5,276 nucleotides of DNA from a bacterium (GTDB lineage Bacteria; JAJRZV01). The stretch spans positions 1 to 5,276 of the forward strand of contig JAJRZV010000092.1 of NCBI GenBank assembly GCA_024275095.1, read 5' to 3'. A model generated the notes under the pieces. The model saw only the letters and a list, made by a program, of their open reading frames with translations, ran no database searches and was not told the DNA's origin. This document shows, piece after piece, positions 1 through 5,276 of the stretch (its first letter is position 1; every line of letters begins with the position of its first letter). The position numbers and the translations under genes were made by a program.

Positions 1-1323
1 CCGGCATCTAAAATCAACCGCCTTAACGTTCCGAAAACATGTGGCAAATGTCACAAGGATATTTACAAAAAATACATAGAGAGCACACATGGCCAGGCAT
101 TTCTCAAGGGAGCCCAGGATGCACCAGTATGCACTACCTGTCACGGTGAACACGATATTCTTCCTCCTCAGGAGCCGGGTTCACTTGTATACACCCGTAA
201 AATCGCCAAGGAGACGTGTGGCCAGTGCCATGCATCAGAACGAATCGTGAAAAAATACGGCATTCCCGCTGATCGTTTTATTACTTACGAAGACAGCTAC
301 CACGGCCTTGCAGATATGTACGGTGACACACGGGTGGCCAACTGTGCCTCGTGTCATGGATACCATGGGGTATTTCCGTCCTCAGACCCACGCTCCTCTG
401 TAAACAAAAAGAACCTTCCCAAAACATGCGGCAAATGTCACCCCGGAGCCACGGCCAAATTCGCCGAGGGTAAAGTTCATGCAGGGATCACGCCTTCAGG
501 CATCACACTGGGAGATAAAGTAAAGTACTACGTAAAGCTCGCATATGTAATTCTTATTCCCCTGGTTATCCTGGGAATGCTGTTCCACAATGCTCTCGAC
601 TTTCTCAAACGTTTAAAACTTGCCATTGAGGAACGGAAGAAAAACGGTGGATACCTGCGCATGGCAACCGCCGAAAGGGCCCAACATGTTCTCATGTTTA
701 CATCCTTTATAGTACTGGTTATCACGGGATTTGCCCTGCGGTTCAAATGGGGACTCCCCTTCATCGGTGGTGAACTCAACTCCATATTGAGGGGTACCAT
801 CCACAGGGTGGCTGCTGTAGGCTTGATCATTTCCTGCATCTGGCATCTCGTTTACATCGCGACCAATGAGCGGGGCAGAAAAATGTTCTGGGACCTCATG
901 CCGCGTCCACGAGACGCCGTGGATGTTGTACAAACCCTGCTTTACTATTTCGGCCTTGCTGAAAAGCCCAAGTACGAACGTTTCAGTTATATCGAAAAAT
1001 CCGAATACCTGGCTCTTATCTGGGGAGCCATTGTGATGATCGTCACGGGACTTATCCTGTGGTTCGAGGATGAGGCCATGAAATACATACCCAAGTGGGG
1101 GGTGGATGTGGCCGATATTGTTCACTATTACGAAGCAATCCTGGCGACACTTGCCATCGTCGTATGGCACTTTTACCACGTCCACATTAAAGGTGGAATA
1201 AAGCACATGAACCTCTCATGGATTGTCGGAACGCTTACCGAAGAAGAAATGGAGGACGAACATGCAGCTGAACTCGAACAAATCAAAAAGGGGGCGGGTC
1301 ATGACGAAAAGCCTTCTTTATAA
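1..1323 (+). CDS. Fused multiheme cytochrome c / diheme cytochrome b (CbcL-like), 5' end missing
   Basis: The reading frame is open from base 1 to the TAA at 1321-1323, giving 440 visible residues; the start lies upstream of the window. A GTG at 247 is in frame but sits between heme motifs and is not a plausible start. Five CxxCH motifs begin at residues 14, 44, 73, 115 and 143. Candidate distal ligands are H30 (STHG), H51, H101 (SYHG), H122 and H160. A hydrophobic anchor helix (about 171-200) carries H196 and leads into a four-helix cytochrome b domain (helices near 229-249, 266-288, 336-356, 372-396). Its candidate b-heme histidines are H229, H268, H282, H375 and H390. By family knowledge, FdnI/HydC-type bundles bind two b hemes and react with quinone, and CbcL joins such a bundle to a c-heme domain. 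A menaquinone:periplasmic-cytochrome oxidoreductase is inferred. The missing N-terminus probably holds a signal peptide and more hemes, as in the two paralogues downstream. The charged C-terminal tail should be cytoplasmic. Confidence 0.93.
   Translation, partial: PASKINRLNVPKTCGKCHKDIYKKYIESTHGQAFLKGAQDAPVCTTCHGEHDILPPQEPGSLVYTRKIAKETCGQCHASERIVKKYGIPADRFITYEDSYHGLADMYGDTRVANCASCHGYHGVFPSSDPRSSVNKKNLPKTCGKCHPGATAKFAEGKVHAGITPSGITLGDKVKYYVKLAYVILIPLVILGMLFHNALDFLKRLKLAIEERKKNGGYLRMATAERAQHVLMFTSFIVLVITGFALRFKWGLPFIGGELNSILRGTIHRVAAVGLIISCIWHLVYIATNERGRKMFWDLMPRPRDAVDVVQTLLYYFGLAEKPKYERFSYIEKSEYLALIWGAIVMIVTGLILWFEDEAMKYIPKWGVDVADIVHYYEAILATLAIVVWHFYHVHIKGGIKHMNLSWIVGTLTEEEMEDEHAAELEQIKKGAGHDEKPSL
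40..426 (+). repeat. Tetraheme protein repeat in the fused cytochrome
   Basis: These 129 codons run from the Cys of one heme motif to just before the Cys of the fifth visible motif. The unit reads: CxxCH, then S-T-H-G and D-A-P; CxxCH-GEH; CxxCH, then S-Y-H-G and V-A-N; CASCHGYH, then D-P. It matches the second repeat of the 11-heme protein and the full repeat of the 9-heme protein in order, spacing and flanking residues. Base-level identity is only local. Confidence 0.8.
1290..1294 (+). promoter_or_regulatory. G-rich ribosome binding site deciding the start at 1301
   Basis: GGGGG lies six bases before ATG 1301, inside the end of the upstream gene. It is a poor match to AGGAGG, but it supports ATG 1301 over the TTG at 1223 together with the signal peptide that begins at 1301. 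Coupling with the overlapping upstream gene is likely. Confidence 0.55.
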
Positions 1324-2539
1324 ATCAAGCATTCAGTGGTTCGGTGTAAGTACAGCCTTTGTTATCCTTTCATTCTGTACACCTCTTTACGCTTCAAGCA
1401 AATGCGTAGAGTGCCATGTAAAAGGGAAAAACGGGCCCGATGTGAGACTCATTGACCTGAAGTTCCTAAAAAACTCGGTACACAGAGCGCTTGAGTGCAT
1501 AGATTGCCACGAAGGAGCAGGGGTTGAGCCTCACACGTCCGAGAAAGCACTCCCAGTAAACTGTGGAAGATGCCACGTGAAATATAATGAAGAGTACAAA
1601 AAGAGCATTCACGGACAGGCACAGGCAAAGGGAATCAAAGATGCTCCAAGTTGCTCAGATTGCCACGGCACGCACGGTATAAGAGCAGCTTCAGATCCTC
1701 TTTCCTCCGTGAACAGGGAAAACATCACTCAACTGTGCCTGAAATGTCACATAGACAGTGACATTACCGCCCAATACAACCTGCCGGGCATCAACTTTTT
1801 CAAATCTTACCAGGAGAGTGCACACTACAAAATAAAAGGGACAACACTCCAACCGGCAGCCGTATGCAGTGACTGCCACGGAAGCCACACAATACTTCCG
1901 GCTGACGACCCCTTTTCCTTCGTTAACAGAAAAAACATACCTTCCGATTGCGGAAAATGCCATTCCATTGAAAAGAAAAGATACAGCATGAGCATTCACT
2001 GGAAAGCTTTTGAAAAAGGCATTAAAGATGCACCCGTGTGCACCGATTGTCACGGAGAGCATACAATTCTTGACGTCCAGAACCCCAATTCCCAGATCAA
2101 TCCAGTAAAAATTCCTTACACCTGTGCCAGATGCCACGAAAGCCTGAAACTCAGCGAAGCGTACCGGATTCCTCCCAAACGACTTTCCACGTATTTCAAC
2201 ACATATCATGGAATAGCCATACGATTTGGAGACACCACGGTGGCCAACTGTGCATCGTGCCACGGATATCATGAGATCCTCCCTGCATCAGACCCCAGAT
2301 CTCCAATCAATCCTGCCAATCTCGTCAAAACATGCTCGCGTTGCCATCCTGGAGCGAATGAAAACTTCGCCAAGGGTCGCGTTCACGTGGATGTGAGTCC
2401 CAAAGGAGAAAAGGGCGTTTTCGCCGTTCGTGTGTTTTACATCATATTCATCTCCGTTCTCTGCGCTGGTTTTCTCTTCCACGTAATAGCCGACATACTC
2501 AGACAGCGCAGGGAATCTCGTGAAGGGAGGCGGTCATGA
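1301..2539 (+). CDS. Membrane-anchored undecaheme cytochrome c
   Basis: This 412-residue protein starts at ATG 1301, overlapping the end of the fused gene by 23 bases. I chose this start because it is followed at once by a Sec signal peptide (basic MTKSLLYK, hydrophobic stretch, likely cleavage after LYA near residue 31) and preceded by a G-rich site six bases away. Eleven CxxCH motifs begin at residues 35, 66, 88, 118, 146, 189, 217, 247, 275, 317 and 345. Twelve further histidines, including H61, H104, H175, H233, H303 and H362, are enough for every heme to be bis-His ligated. Residues 88-216 and 217-344 are two copies of a tetraheme repeat. A C-terminal anchor helix (about 373-399) contains H394, and a basic tail follows. 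The heme domain is therefore periplasmic and tethered to the inner membrane. It should pair with the cytochrome b encoded next, so that the two together equal the fused protein upstream. Specific redox partners cannot be told from the sequence. Confidence 0.95.
   Translation: MTKSLLYKSSIQWFGVSTAFVILSFCTPLYASSKCVECHVKGKNGPDVRLIDLKFLKNSVHRALECIDCHEGAGVEPHTSEKALPVNCGRCHVKYNEEYKKSIHGQAQAKGIKDAPSCSDCHGTHGIRAASDPLSSVNRENITQLCLKCHIDSDITAQYNLPGINFFKSYQESAHYKIKGTTLQPAAVCSDCHGSHTILPADDPFSFVNRKNIPSDCGKCHSIEKKRYSMSIHWKAFEKGIKDAPVCTDCHGEHTILDVQNPNSQINPVKIPYTCARCHESLKLSEAYRIPPKRLSTYFNTYHGIAIRFGDTTVANCASCHGYHEILPASDPRSPINPANLVKTCSRCHPGANENFAKGRVHVDVSPKGEKGVFAVRVFYIIFISVLCAGFLFHVIADILRQRRESREGRRS
1562..1948 (+). 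repeat. Tetraheme protein repeat, first copy in the 11-heme cytochrome
   Basis: Residues 88-216 (129 codons, hemes 3-6) form the first of two tandem units. Shared marks with the second copy are SIH, KGIKDAP before the second motif, CxDCHGxH, and the closing D-P / N-P segment. Its third inter-heme segment is more divergent (S-A-H-Y instead of T-Y-H-G, and no VANC). Confidence 0.75.
1949..2332 (+). repeat. Tetraheme protein repeat, second copy in the 11-heme cytochrome
   Basis: Residues 217-344 (128 codons, hemes 7-10) directly follow the first unit and are closed by heme 11 (CSRCHPGA). The motif order and the KGIKDAP segment match the first unit. The VANCASCHG segment (2243-2266) matches those at 334-360 and 3989-4015 in the paralogues. 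Confidence 0.8.
2525..2530 (+). promoter_or_regulatory. Ribosome binding site for the cytochrome b gene at 2536
   Basis: GGGAGG ends five bases before ATG 2536, which overlaps the TGA of the upstream gene. This suggests translational coupling of the c- and b-type partners. Confidence 0.75.
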
Positions 2540-3234
2540 AAAAAATTGGAACCATAGAAAATGGACGGGTTTTGCGCTTCAGCCTGCACATGAGAATTCA
2601 GCATATAGTGTTGATGGTAAGCCTTATTGCCCTGGCCGTTACAGGATTCGCCCTCAAGTACAACGACTCGGTGCTCGGGCGTTTTTTACTCACCATTGAA
2701 GGAGGCATGACCTTCAGGGGGATGATTCATCGCTTCTTCGCAGTAATACTGGTACTCGATATTATTTATCACCTCTGGTACACGGTGTTTACGGATGAGG
2801 GCCACAGAGAACTCATGCTTCTTAAACCCTCGCGTAAAGACGTAACCGAGTTTTTTGCTGTGATGAGGTACACGCTCACCGGCCGCGGGAGTAAGCCCGA
2901 GTTTGACAAATATACTTATCGTGAAAAAATTCAATATTGGGGAGTTGTCGTCGGCGTGTCCATCATGGTGATCACCGGGTTTCTCCTCTGGTTCGAAACC
3001 GCATCCATGACCGTAATGCCCAAGTGGATATTCGATATTACGGGGATTGTTCACGGGGCGGAAGGCATAATTTTGTTTATTATCCTGTTTTTATGGCATG
3101 CCTATAACGTGCACATCGGGGGCAAACAATTCTTTAATACTTCTTTCATCAGCGGATGGGAAGACCTGGATTACCTCAAGAAGGAGCGACCGCTGGAATA
3201 CAAACGGTACACAGGAGGGGGTGAAGGTGTGTAA
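2536..3234 (+). CDS. Diheme cytochrome b subunit (FdnI/HydC-like)
   Basis: A 232-residue integral membrane protein beginning at an ATG that overlaps the preceding TGA (ATGA), with GGGAGG five bases upstream, so translation is probably coupled. Four membrane helices lie near residues 22-41, 61-85, 132-153 and 168-193. Histidines matching the family's b-heme positions are H23 (RIQH), H65 (IHR), H79 (YH), H173 (VHGAE) and H188 (LWH). FdnI of formate dehydrogenase N binds two hemes with one His on helix I, one on helix II and two on helix IV. The loop after helix II has the signature KP-S-R-KDV, and the stretch before helix III has KPEFDKYTYREK; both occur in similar form in the other two b-type proteins here. 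Expected role: quinone oxidation or reduction linked to the 11-heme partner. It has no c-heme motif. The N-terminus is short, unlike the third b-type protein. It is not a broken piece of a fusion, because it has its own start and ribosome site. Confidence 0.94.
   Translation: MKKIGTIENGRVLRFSLHMRIQHIVLMVSLIALAVTGFALKYNDSVLGRFLLTIEGGMTFRGMIHRFFAVILVLDIIYHLWYTVFTDEGHRELMLLKPSRKDVTEFFAVMRYTLTGRGSKPEFDKYTYREKIQYWGVVVGVSIMVITGFLLWFETASMTVMPKWIFDITGIVHGAEGIILFIILFLWHAYNVHIGGKQFFNTSFISGWEDLDYLKKERPLEYKRYTGGGEGV
3213..3218 (+). promoter_or_regulatory. Ribosome binding site deciding the GTG start at 3227
   Basis: AGGAGG, a full consensus, ends eight bases before GTG 3227 and only two before GTG 3221. 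The spacing favours 3227. The more distant ATG at 3098 would lie inside helix IV of the upstream protein and lacks a signal peptide directly after it. Confidence 0.75.
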
Positions 3235-4312
3235 AAAACAACTCATTGCTTTACTCAGCGGTATTTTCTTGTGTGTCTCTGTAAAAGCCCAGGCGACGAT
3301 AGCTGTCGAAAAATGTATGATCTGCCACGGGAAACCAGAACTTAAACGAGTGGATGCTGCGGGCAAGGTGCACTACCTTTTTGTAAACCTCAAGGTATTA
3401 AAGGCTTCTGTCCATGCCAAAAAGGTATGTACAGATTGCCACGCGGATGTAACAGTTATTCCTCATACCCAAAAACCCAAACGCGTCAACTGTCAGCGGT
3501 GTCATTACAAAGGCAATCCCCAGGGTGCTCCTCAGATAGACAAATACATGGAATACGAAAAAAGTGTCCATGCTCAGGAAGTACGAAAAGGAAACCCCAA
3601 GGCACCTGTATGTCAGGACTGCCACGGCAATCACGATGTAAGGAAAACGAAGGATCCGCTCTCGCATGTATTCAAAAACAACGTACCTGAAACATGTGGA
3701 AGATGCCATATGGAGGAATACGCACAATACAGGCACAGCATTCACGGGACAGCCCTTCTTGATAAAGGAATTATGGACGCGCCCTCCTGTACTGACTGCC
3801 ATGGTGAACACCTCATTCTCAGGCATACCAATCCCCAATCTCCCACCTACGCCACCCGCATAGTAAAAACGTGTGCCCATTGTCATGAAGCTGTAAACAT
3901 TGTGGGCAAATACGGCATAAATGTGGAGCAGGTGGAGACCTATGAGCGCAGTTTTCATGGTATTGCTGTTAAATTCGGAGAAAAAACCGTCGCCAACTGT
4001 GCCTCATGTCACGGGGTACACAATATACTCCCCCCCGAAGATCCCCACTCAACCGTTTACATCAAAAACATTCCTAAAACCTGCGGGAAACCCAACTGCC
4101 ATCCAGGAGCAAACATTAACTTCGCCAGGGGTAAAATCCACGTAAATCCTGAGAAGAAAAGTGCCGGAATTATTTACTGGATCGCTCTGTTTTTTAAAAT
4201 TTTAACAGCCTCCGTATTGCTGGGTCTCATCATACACATTGCTATGGACCTTTACCGCCGTACCCAAGAATATCAGCAAAAAAAGAAAGAATTCAAAGAA
4301 ATGGAGGAATAA
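3227..4312 (+). CDS. Membrane-anchored nonaheme cytochrome c with a CX4CH site
   Basis: This 361-residue protein probably starts at GTG 3227, overlapping the previous stop by 8 bases; AGGAGG ends eight bases before it. GTG 3221, two codons upstream, is possible but too close to the ribosome site. A Sec signal peptide follows (basic CKKQ, hydrophobic core, likely cleavage after VKA or AQA near residues 21-23). Eight CxxCH motifs begin at residues 30, 68, 89, 129, 157, 188, 216 and 258. The ninth, at 286-292, is CGKPNCH, a CX4CH. The paralogues have CSRCH and CGKCH at that place, so a two-residue insertion (Pro-Asn) explains it. An anchor helix (about 313-340) contains H337, and a lysine/glutamate-rich tail follows. 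It resembles the 11-heme protein upstream but lacks half of the first tetraheme repeat. It should be a periplasmic electron wire tied to the inner membrane, paired with the cytochrome b that follows 3 bases later. Confidence 0.94.
   Translation: MCKKQLIALLSGIFLCVSVKAQATIAVEKCMICHGKPELKRVDAAGKVHYLFVNLKVLKASVHAKKVCTDCHADVTVIPHTQKPKRVNCQRCHYKGNPQGAPQIDKYMEYEKSVHAQEVRKGNPKAPVCQDCHGNHDVRKTKDPLSHVFKNNVPETCGRCHMEEYAQYRHSIHGTALLDKGIMDAPSCTDCHGEHLILRHTNPQSPTYATRIVKTCAHCHEAVNIVGKYGINVEQVETYERSFHGIAVKFGEKTVANCASCHGVHNILPPEDPHSTVYIKNIPKTCGKPNCHPGANINFARGKIHVNPEKKSAGIIYWIALFFKILTASVLLGLIIHIAMDLYRRTQEYQQKKKEFKEMEE
3491..3694 (+). repeat. Half-length (two-heme) repeat in the 9-heme cytochrome
   Basis: Residues 89-156 hold hemes 3 and 4 (CQRCH; CQDCHGNH, then D-P-L-S). 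They correspond to the first half of the tetraheme unit (SVHA, K-A-P before the second motif), but the second half is missing. This accounts for the two-heme difference from the 11-heme paralogue. Confidence 0.65.
3695..4081 (+). repeat. Tetraheme protein repeat, full copy in the 9-heme cytochrome
   Basis: Residues 157-285 (129 codons, hemes 5-8) carry SIHG, KGIMDAP, CTDCHGEH, S-F-H-G and VANCASCHG in the same order and spacing as in the other two c-type proteins. The CX4CH ninth heme closes the unit. Confidence 0.78.
4082..4102 (+). other. Noncanonical CX4CH heme attachment motif
   Basis: These seven codons read CGKPNCH. The same place reads CGKCH (427-441) in the fused protein and CSRCH in the 11-heme protein, each followed by HPGA. 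CX4CH sites are known in some cytochrome c3-type proteins of sulfate reducers, so heme attachment here is plausible but not proven. Confidence 0.8.
4303..4307 (+). promoter_or_regulatory. Ribosome binding site for the cytochrome b gene at 4316
   Basis: GGAGG, within the last codons of the 9-heme gene, ends eight bases before ATG 4316. It supports the long N-terminal extension as translated protein rather than a start nearer the first membrane helix. Confidence 0.75.
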
Positions 4313-4315
4313 TCC

Positions 4316-5276
4316 ATGGCTCACGAGAAAACAGAAAAAGTGCTCCAGGAAATACGCGCTACCGTCCGTGAAGAGGCCCTTAAACGCCTTCGTGAAAAAT
4401 TAGGCGGAATCACAGAAGACATAAATCTTGAAGAACTTATAGATTCACACATTGCCGAAGTAAATGAGGTGCTCGAAGGTTCGATCAAACGTGCATCAAT
4501 CAAGCTTTACAGGGAAGCTCTCAAAGATGCAAAAAAAATACTGAAAAGAACCGAAAAGGAAGAGGAAGAAGAGGAAGAGTACTTTATCCGCTTTAACATC
4601 CACTTCCGGATACAGCACATGATCCTCTTCACCAGTGTGATATTATTGATATTAACGGGTATCCCCTTAAAATTCCCGGAGTTTGGAGCTCTTTCGGTAT
4701 TCATTCATCTCTTCGGCGGAATTGAAAATTCGAGAATAATCCACAGGATAGGAGCCTCCGGACTCATTATATTCATGGTCTATCACATGGCCTACGTGGT
4801 CCTTCACCCCGAAGGTCGGCGAGACTTCATTATGCTCATACCTCGACCCAAAGATGTGATGGACTTCATACAAAATGTTAAATATTTCCTGGGGCTCACG
4901 AATGAAAAACCCAAGTTTGACAGGTTTTCATATATTGAGAAGTTCGATTACTGGGCAGTTTACTGGGGCTGTGTAATTATGATCGGTTCAGGGTTGCTCC
5001 TCTGGTTTGAAGAATTATCCATGAAATTCCTGCCTAAATTCGTCTTAGACATCGCCAAGGAAGCTCACAGCGATGAAGCACTCCTTGCAACCCTCGCTAT
5101 TGTTATATGGCACTTCTACAACGTGCACTTTAATCCAGACCGTTTCCCGGGGACCTTGCTCTGGCTCCACGGGAAAATTTCCGCCGAAGAAATGAAAGAA
5201 GAACACCCACTTGAATACGAGCGCATCATGCGCGAACGTGCTGAAAAAGCGAAACAGGGGGAAAACCATGTCTCCA
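4316..5276 (+). CDS. Cytochrome b subunit with charged helical N-terminal extension, 3' end missing
   Basis: The frame opens at ATG 4316, three bases after the previous stop and eight bases after GGAGG, and runs off the right edge (320 complete codons). Residues 1-88 are a hydrophilic, probably alpha-helical region rich in Glu, Lys, Arg and Leu, ending in seven consecutive glutamates (82-88). Neither of the other b-type proteins has this. The cytochrome b domain follows: helices near 101-119, 140-163, 211-231 and 249-271, with candidate b-heme ligands H101 (RIQH), H143 (IHR), H157 (YH), H251 (AHSDE) and H266 (IWH). RPKDV after helix II and KPKFDRFSYIEK before helix III mark the same family as the other two. 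The C-terminal tail is highly charged. By analogy with FdnI, both ends face the cytoplasm, so the extension would be cytoplasmic. The expected core role is quinone-linked electron transfer with the 9-heme protein; the function of the extension is unknown. Confidence 0.92.
   Translation, partial: MAHEKTEKVLQEIRATVREEALKRLREKLGGITEDINLEELIDSHIAEVNEVLEGSIKRASIKLYREALKDAKKILKRTEKEEEEEEEYFIRFNIHFRIQHMILFTSVILLILTGIPLKFPEFGALSVFIHLFGGIENSRIIHRIGASGLIIFMVYHMAYVVLHPEGRRDFIMLIPRPKDVMDFIQNVKYFLGLTNEKPKFDRFSYIEKFDYWAVYWGCVIMIGSGLLLWFEELSMKFLPKFVLDIAKEAHSDEALLATLAIVIWHFYNVHFNPDRFPGTLLWLHGKISAEEMKEEHPLEYERIMRERAEKAKQGENHVS
5268..5276 (+). CDS. Possible start of the next operon gene
   Basis: ATG 5268 lies inside the 3' part of the cytochrome b gene in another frame and has GGGGG (5257-5261) six bases upstream. 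The same geometry, GGGGG plus six bases plus ATG inside the tail of a cytochrome b domain, starts the 11-heme cytochrome at 1301. Only three codons (M-S-P) are visible, so the product cannot be named. By position in the alternating pattern, another multiheme cytochrome c would fit. Confidence 0.35.

Follow-up and report, generated by a model that had tools for sequence, protein, structure and literature searches.

Why should a bacterium encode several membrane modules of one design side by side, each combining a periplasmic chain of c hemes with a b-heme bundle, and do such modules belong together? We address this question for a stretch of 5,276 nucleotides (hereafter the window) that makes up the entire contig C58 of a 2.45 Mb bacterial genome, 97% complete. 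The initial annotation had read it as three consecutive cytochrome c/cytochrome b modules, one fused and two split, in an array that it did not recognize as a described system.

Gene content of the window

Five reading frames (A to E) run in the same direction through the window, and a probable sixth gene, F, has only its initial codons inside it (Table 1). The 5' 188 codons of A are located on contig C75, whose end overlaps the window exactly over 141 bp; after joining, A is complete and encodes 628 amino acids with a signal peptide, 11 CXXCH motifs, a single anchor helix and the four helices of the b domain. Since a tRNA-Ser and divergent thiolase-like genes (a name taken from reading the translation alone) precede A, we consider A the first gene of the array. 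Genes overlap by 23 nt (A/B), 4 nt (B/C) and 8 nt (C/D) or are separated by 3 nt (D/E), and an ATG at 5268 lies inside the 3' end of E. Reading frames, heme motifs and helices, as well as the adjacency and translational linkage of the modules, are as first described. Pfam assigns the heme chains of A, B and D to the cytochrome c7/c3 type; A, C and E match PF01292, the four-helix cytochrome b561/FdnI family (E 6e-14 for the b domain of A). An Rfam search produced no RNA match.

Table 1. Genes of the window and composition of related array loci
Feature	Location	Strand	Description
Gene A, 3' 440 codons	1..1323	+	CbcL-like fusion: c-heme chain, anchor helix and four-helix FdnI-type b domain
Gene B	1301..2539	+	c half of module 2: 412 aa with a signal peptide, 11 CXXCH and an anchor helix at the C-terminus
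Gene C	2536..3234	+	232 aa, four-helix diheme cytochrome b, FdnI family, PF01292; b half of module 2
Gene D	3227..4312	+	c half of module 3: 361 aa with a signal peptide, 8 CXXCH, 1 CX4CH and an anchor helix at the C-terminus
Gene E	4316..5276, stop beyond window	+	320+ aa, four-helix diheme cytochrome b, PF01292; b half of module 3
Gene F (probable), first three codons ATG TCT CCA	5268..5276	+	Relatives show the same position and overlap with the 3' end of E
A-B-C-D-E-F, complete	L042 (CSP1-8), L044, L056 (G041), L077 (G320), L078 (G187)		
A-B-C-D-E-F	L041		Contig ends inside F
A-B-C-D-E	L049		Up to contig end
B-C-D-E-F	L054, L074 (Poribacteria), L076, L080		L074 shares its contig with L043
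B-C-D-E-F with divergent A	L055, L075		
Locus beginning inside B	L045		
C-D-E-F	L046 (Acidobacteria), L048, L079 (Thermodesulfobacteriota)		L079 shares its contig with L050
A-D-E-F	L082		
D-E-F only	L047		

Module architecture and fold of the b domains

The pairs B-C and D-E are split versions of A: a c chain ending in an anchor helix, followed by four helices. Pairwise identity across the three modules is 33-43% for the b domains and 39-42% for the c chains. Their earlier description as CbcL-like quinone:cytochrome modules and divergent paralogues is supported. A search of the same genome found no further relative of the b subunits at E <= 0.001.

At the sequence level, C matches Escherichia coli FdnI (1kqf_C) with an E value of 2e-4, while E, modeled with AlphaFold (mean pLDDT 81), superimposes on the same chain with a Z score of 17.9 (2.8 Å over 209 residues). 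Four histidines, predicted in C to be the b-heme ligands H23, H65, H173 and H188, occur without exception in the 77 b domains compared. Based on these matches and on the model, C, E and the b part of A are predicted to share the four-helix fold of FdnI and to hold two b hemes, each with bis-His ligation.

Two additional histidines on the presumed cytoplasmic side are also widely conserved (in C numbering, H79 in 71 and H193 in 61 of the 77 domains), and a histidine, itself variable, is present in many of the helices that anchor A, B and D. We considered a third b heme, or a quinone site, built from H79, H193 and the anchor histidine and dropped it as suggestive at most. The E protein starts with a charged helical extension of about 85 residues (window 4316-4570). 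This extension is found in all array E orthologues with poor sequence conservation and is missing from C and A; it is predicted as long helices, which are likely to lie on the cytoplasmic side.

The gene downstream of E

A fourth b/c module had been suspected from position 5268. We rejected this candidate: all relatives in which the contig continues have at this place a multiheme c-type cytochrome, F, and by homology to these relatives the gene at 5268 is probably this giant cytochrome. The array F of the window's own genome is unassembled and was not found elsewhere in that genome, which contains only an 11-heme paralogue on contig C34; the features given here are those of the relatives' proteins.

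F proteins of relatives are about 570-690 amino acids long. In 14 of 15, we counted 18 heme motifs, which outside the f20 lineage are 16 CXXCH, one CX3CH and one CX4CH. Those of the 14 that belong to the f20 lineage have 17 CXXCH and one CX3CH; there, a CXXCH stands at the CX4CH position, which supports CX4CH as a real heme site. The fifteenth protein (L080) has 17 CXXCH and one CX4CH, and is devoid of CX3CH. Two F-type cytochromes with 15 and 17 CXXCH are found in tandem after E at this L080 locus (11760-15662).

The N-terminus of F resembles a membrane anchor of the NapC/NrfH type. Of four F proteins, one exceeds the PF03264 cutoff and three fall below it, and a 15-row profile matches NrfH (2j7a_C) with an E value of 6.9e-11. 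Other parts of F match OcwA (6i5b, E 5e-18), NrfA and the Carboxydothermus S-layer cytochrome (6qvm). The structural model of F is weak (mean pLDDT 65), its N-terminal half being too poor for use; for the C-terminal third, alignments with MccA, OcwA and NrfA reach Z scores of 10-13 (6i5b, Z 12.9; 4rkm_B, Z 13.3). We read F as a putative inner-membrane-anchored periplasmic hub, combining an NrfH-like anchor with an OcwA/NrfA-type end.

Conservation of the array across bacterial phyla

We mapped the neighborhoods of relatives by tblastn (Table 1). About ten families from several phyla share the order (A)-B-C-D-E-F. D precedes E in all 20 array loci, F follows E in all 18 with a continuing contig, and C is present ahead of D in 18 of 20. 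D-E-F is an invariant core and B-C is nearly invariant. The CbcL-like A is a detachable module: it is divergent in genomes G019 and G167, located on a separate contig in G306 and missing in several others. The initial annotation had called for a search for conserved co-occurrence, holding that modules found apart in relatives and in no fixed order, or an array limited to one genome, would speak against a joint complex. Neither describes what we observed, and the array does recur elsewhere; what is conserved throughout is D-E-F, which B-C usually precedes, rather than three modules.

The same gene order in distantly related uncultured bacteria argues for a real respiratory gene cluster, built of known parts and largely overlooked. 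Among 386 spread genomes, 81 contain a b relative of any type and about 11 a close E type. Three b modules are present in all four genomes examined from the phylum of G041 and in seven of nine from that of G019, where A is divergent or lies on another contig; the other two of these nine are assemblies about 80% complete, in hundreds of contigs. Eight loci traced back to their genomes gave consistent results, with a single b gene in G392. That G392 has D-E-F only, and locus L082 A-D-E-F only, indicates that three modules are not always needed.

A PAS histidine kinase is encoded upstream of the array at L056 (13646-17157) and L078 (16733-18862), and a sigma-54 response regulator lies between this kinase and A at L056. 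A simple consensus scan of six regions upstream of A detected no sigma-54 -24/-12 promoter.

Evolutionary history of the array genes

We built quick trees of the 77 b domains and of the c chains, with SH-aLRT supports given and no bootstraps. In the b-domain tree, the 18 C rows form one clade (support 98), and the 20 E rows group with three stand-alone relatives (support 96) that nest inside them. A rows are mixed among stand-alone fused CbcL-like proteins. An AU test rejected a single clade for all A genes (p 0.005) and did not reject a single E clade (p 0.17). The c-chain tree unites all D rows across phyla in a single clade (support 99), one L041 row being labeled 'other' because of a frame break, and the B rows group with three outsiders (support 95). 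These trees suggest that C and D, and nearly so E and B, are position-specific orthologues, and that A may have been recruited or replaced more than once. As positions C, D and E each go back to a single old lineage, or nearly so, the array is not the product of a recent tandem duplication. Chance or recent duplication was rejected as an explanation, given the divergence of the paralogues and the orthology of the C and D positions across phyla.

Outside the array, single modules with an E-type b gene beside a 6-8 heme protein occur in Planctomycetes, Sumerlaeota and Omnitrophota (L051, L052 and L053); in the tree they nest among the array E genes.

Other cytochrome loci

The genome under study has a second quinol-oxidizing locus, as its gene content suggests, on contig C34 (L072, genome G000, 2013-8896), encoding an 8-heme c cytochrome, a 4Fe-4S protein, NrfD, a Rieske protein, cytochrome b, a 9-heme c cytochrome and the 11-heme F paralogue. 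Its make-up presumably resembles that of Geobacter Cbc6. Directly downstream of the array in L056 and L078, an 11-heme F paralogue is again accompanied by Rieske, cytochrome b and 9-heme cytochrome genes, and these three cases associate F-type cytochromes with two kinds of quinol-oxidizing system. A further locus of the genome (L073, contig C108, 20000-39000) encodes NHL-repeat, TSP3/PKD and multiheme cytochrome proteins and is possibly involved in extracellular electron transfer.

A proposed function and its alternatives

FdnI-type b subunits connect cofactors in the periplasm with a quinone site close to the cytoplasmic face and conduct electrons between the two, as established for FdnI itself. 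In Geobacter, CbcL and CbcBA are inner-membrane quinol oxidoreductases required at low potential (PMC9129911, PMC12307469). We propose, with a probability of about 0.75, that the array encodes menaquinone:periplasmic-cytochrome oxidoreductases: three FdnI/CbcL-type modules in the inner membrane which, with F, would feed extracellular electron transfer. In each module, two b hemes would pass electrons across the membrane, between a cytoplasmic-side quinone site and an anchored chain of 9-11 periplasmic c hemes. Three quinone outlets would thus lead into three heme chains, the modules being presumably co-expressed with F. The anchored 18-heme F would probably take electrons from, or give them to, the three chains, and would exchange electrons with cytochromes of the periplasm and the outer membrane. 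Most likely, the modules oxidize menaquinol for extracellular electron transfer, with paralogues suited to different potentials; quinone reduction would also be chemically possible, the direction not being fixed by sequence.

How the modules might relate physically can be seen in two ways. They may be independent isoenzymes of different potentials, co-expressed and physically separate, like ImcH, CbcL and CbcBA in Geobacter, where distinct inner-membrane cytochromes serve different potentials (PMC12307469). That A behaves like a stand-alone CbcL fits this scenario; however, the arrays retain gene order and F jointly, whereas for the Geobacter enzymes separate gene clusters have been described (PMC11434368). 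We place this scenario not far short of an even chance. Possible too, if more doubtful, is a membrane supercomplex of all the products, holding about 49 c hemes and 6 b hemes, with a single heme network fed from three quinone sites. Such an assembly would account for the fixed order, the overlapping genes and the retention of three divergent paralogues with F across phyla, but not easily for an A that is often divergent, unlinked or absent, nor for a genome with D-E-F alone. We regard as improbable its most elaborate form, a single supercomplex of about 55 hemes where three non-equivalent quinone sites, each backed by a separate b-heme pair and c-heme wire, all lead to the 18-heme hub. If true, the quinone pool could be tapped over a wide potential range, or oxidation at one site coupled to reduction at another.

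The array might also run inward, as a quinone reductase taking up electrons from outside, as FdnI does for formate. FdnI, the closest solved relative, reduces menaquinone. CbcL/MtoC homologues are present in Fe(II) oxidizers (PMC6295460), and reverse operation has been proposed for CbcBA in Seep-SRB2 (PMC10553843). No sequence feature sets the direction. We hold inward operation to be rather unlikely. Finally, F could be a terminal reductase, either for a nitrogen or sulfur compound, in the manner of NrfA or MccA, or for Fe(III) at the outer membrane, as proposed for its counterpart in PMC9386147. Its C-terminal likeness to MccA, OcwA and NrfA would fit a reductase, but the NrfH/NapC-type N-terminus, that of an inner-membrane anchor, argues against an outer-membrane location, and we find this role quite improbable. 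Our preferred reading of the array, quinol oxidation through three modules and F, would make it a concrete case for why cells need several inner-membrane quinol outlets together. F or E could also serve as a marker gene to predict extracellular respiration in the uncultured lineages that carry the array.

Comparison with known systems

In the open-access literature we found no account of the three modules, of their conserved order or of the anchor of F, and nothing on CSP1-8 with a multiheme cytochrome or on '16 heme' with CbcL. The view that the array is not a described system holds for its three-module logic and order, but not for its composition. In the MBNT15 bacterium SHF-111, 'Cluster 1' comprises four genes for multiheme c cytochromes, with 9-16 motifs, along with two genes for 4-helix cytochromes b (PMC9386147). 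Likened by composition only, these correspond to A, B, D, F and C, E of L042, L044, L056, L077 and L078. As apparently the same cluster is listed there, the array is not wholly undescribed; that report concerns one genome, without the b domain of the first gene, the three-module logic, the wide conservation or the inner-membrane anchor of F.

Proteins of the CbcL/MtrH/MtoC family carry a multiheme c domain (3-23 CX2CH) at the N-terminus, joined to a multi-helix domain. A has this architecture in a single reading frame and, like these proteins, joins a multiheme c domain, an anchor helix and an FdnI-like diheme b domain in one chain, PF01292 and the four invariant histidines placing its b domain with those of FdnI and HydC. 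Geobacter CbcL has 9 hemes, against 11 heme motifs in A, and A differs in its setting, at the head of an operon that also includes F and two split paralogues.

The fused CbcL (PMC6295460) and Cbc5 (PMC11434368, PMC7894505) are single-module relatives of the array. Geobacter Cbc5 (cbcEDCBA) includes CbcA with 7 hemes, a separate b subunit CbcB, and the neighboring CbcC with 12 hemes (PMC11434368, PMC7894505). Likened by description, CbcBA corresponds to B-C and D-E, each a multiheme c chain next to a four-helix b subunit; Cbc5 has one module only, in contrast to three here with a shared 18-heme F, and also contains CbcD (2 hemes, HAMP) and CbcE, of which we noticed no counterparts in the arrays. 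E. coli FdnI shares the fold and the four heme-b ligands, but its partner is formate dehydrogenase instead of a c-heme chain. OcwA and the NrfA/MccA superfamily resemble the C-terminal part of F, which differs by its greater length, its 18 motifs and its NrfH-like membrane anchor. Quinone:cytochrome modules known singly in Geobacter are kept, in many uncultured lineages, as a set of fixed order that includes a giant heme protein.
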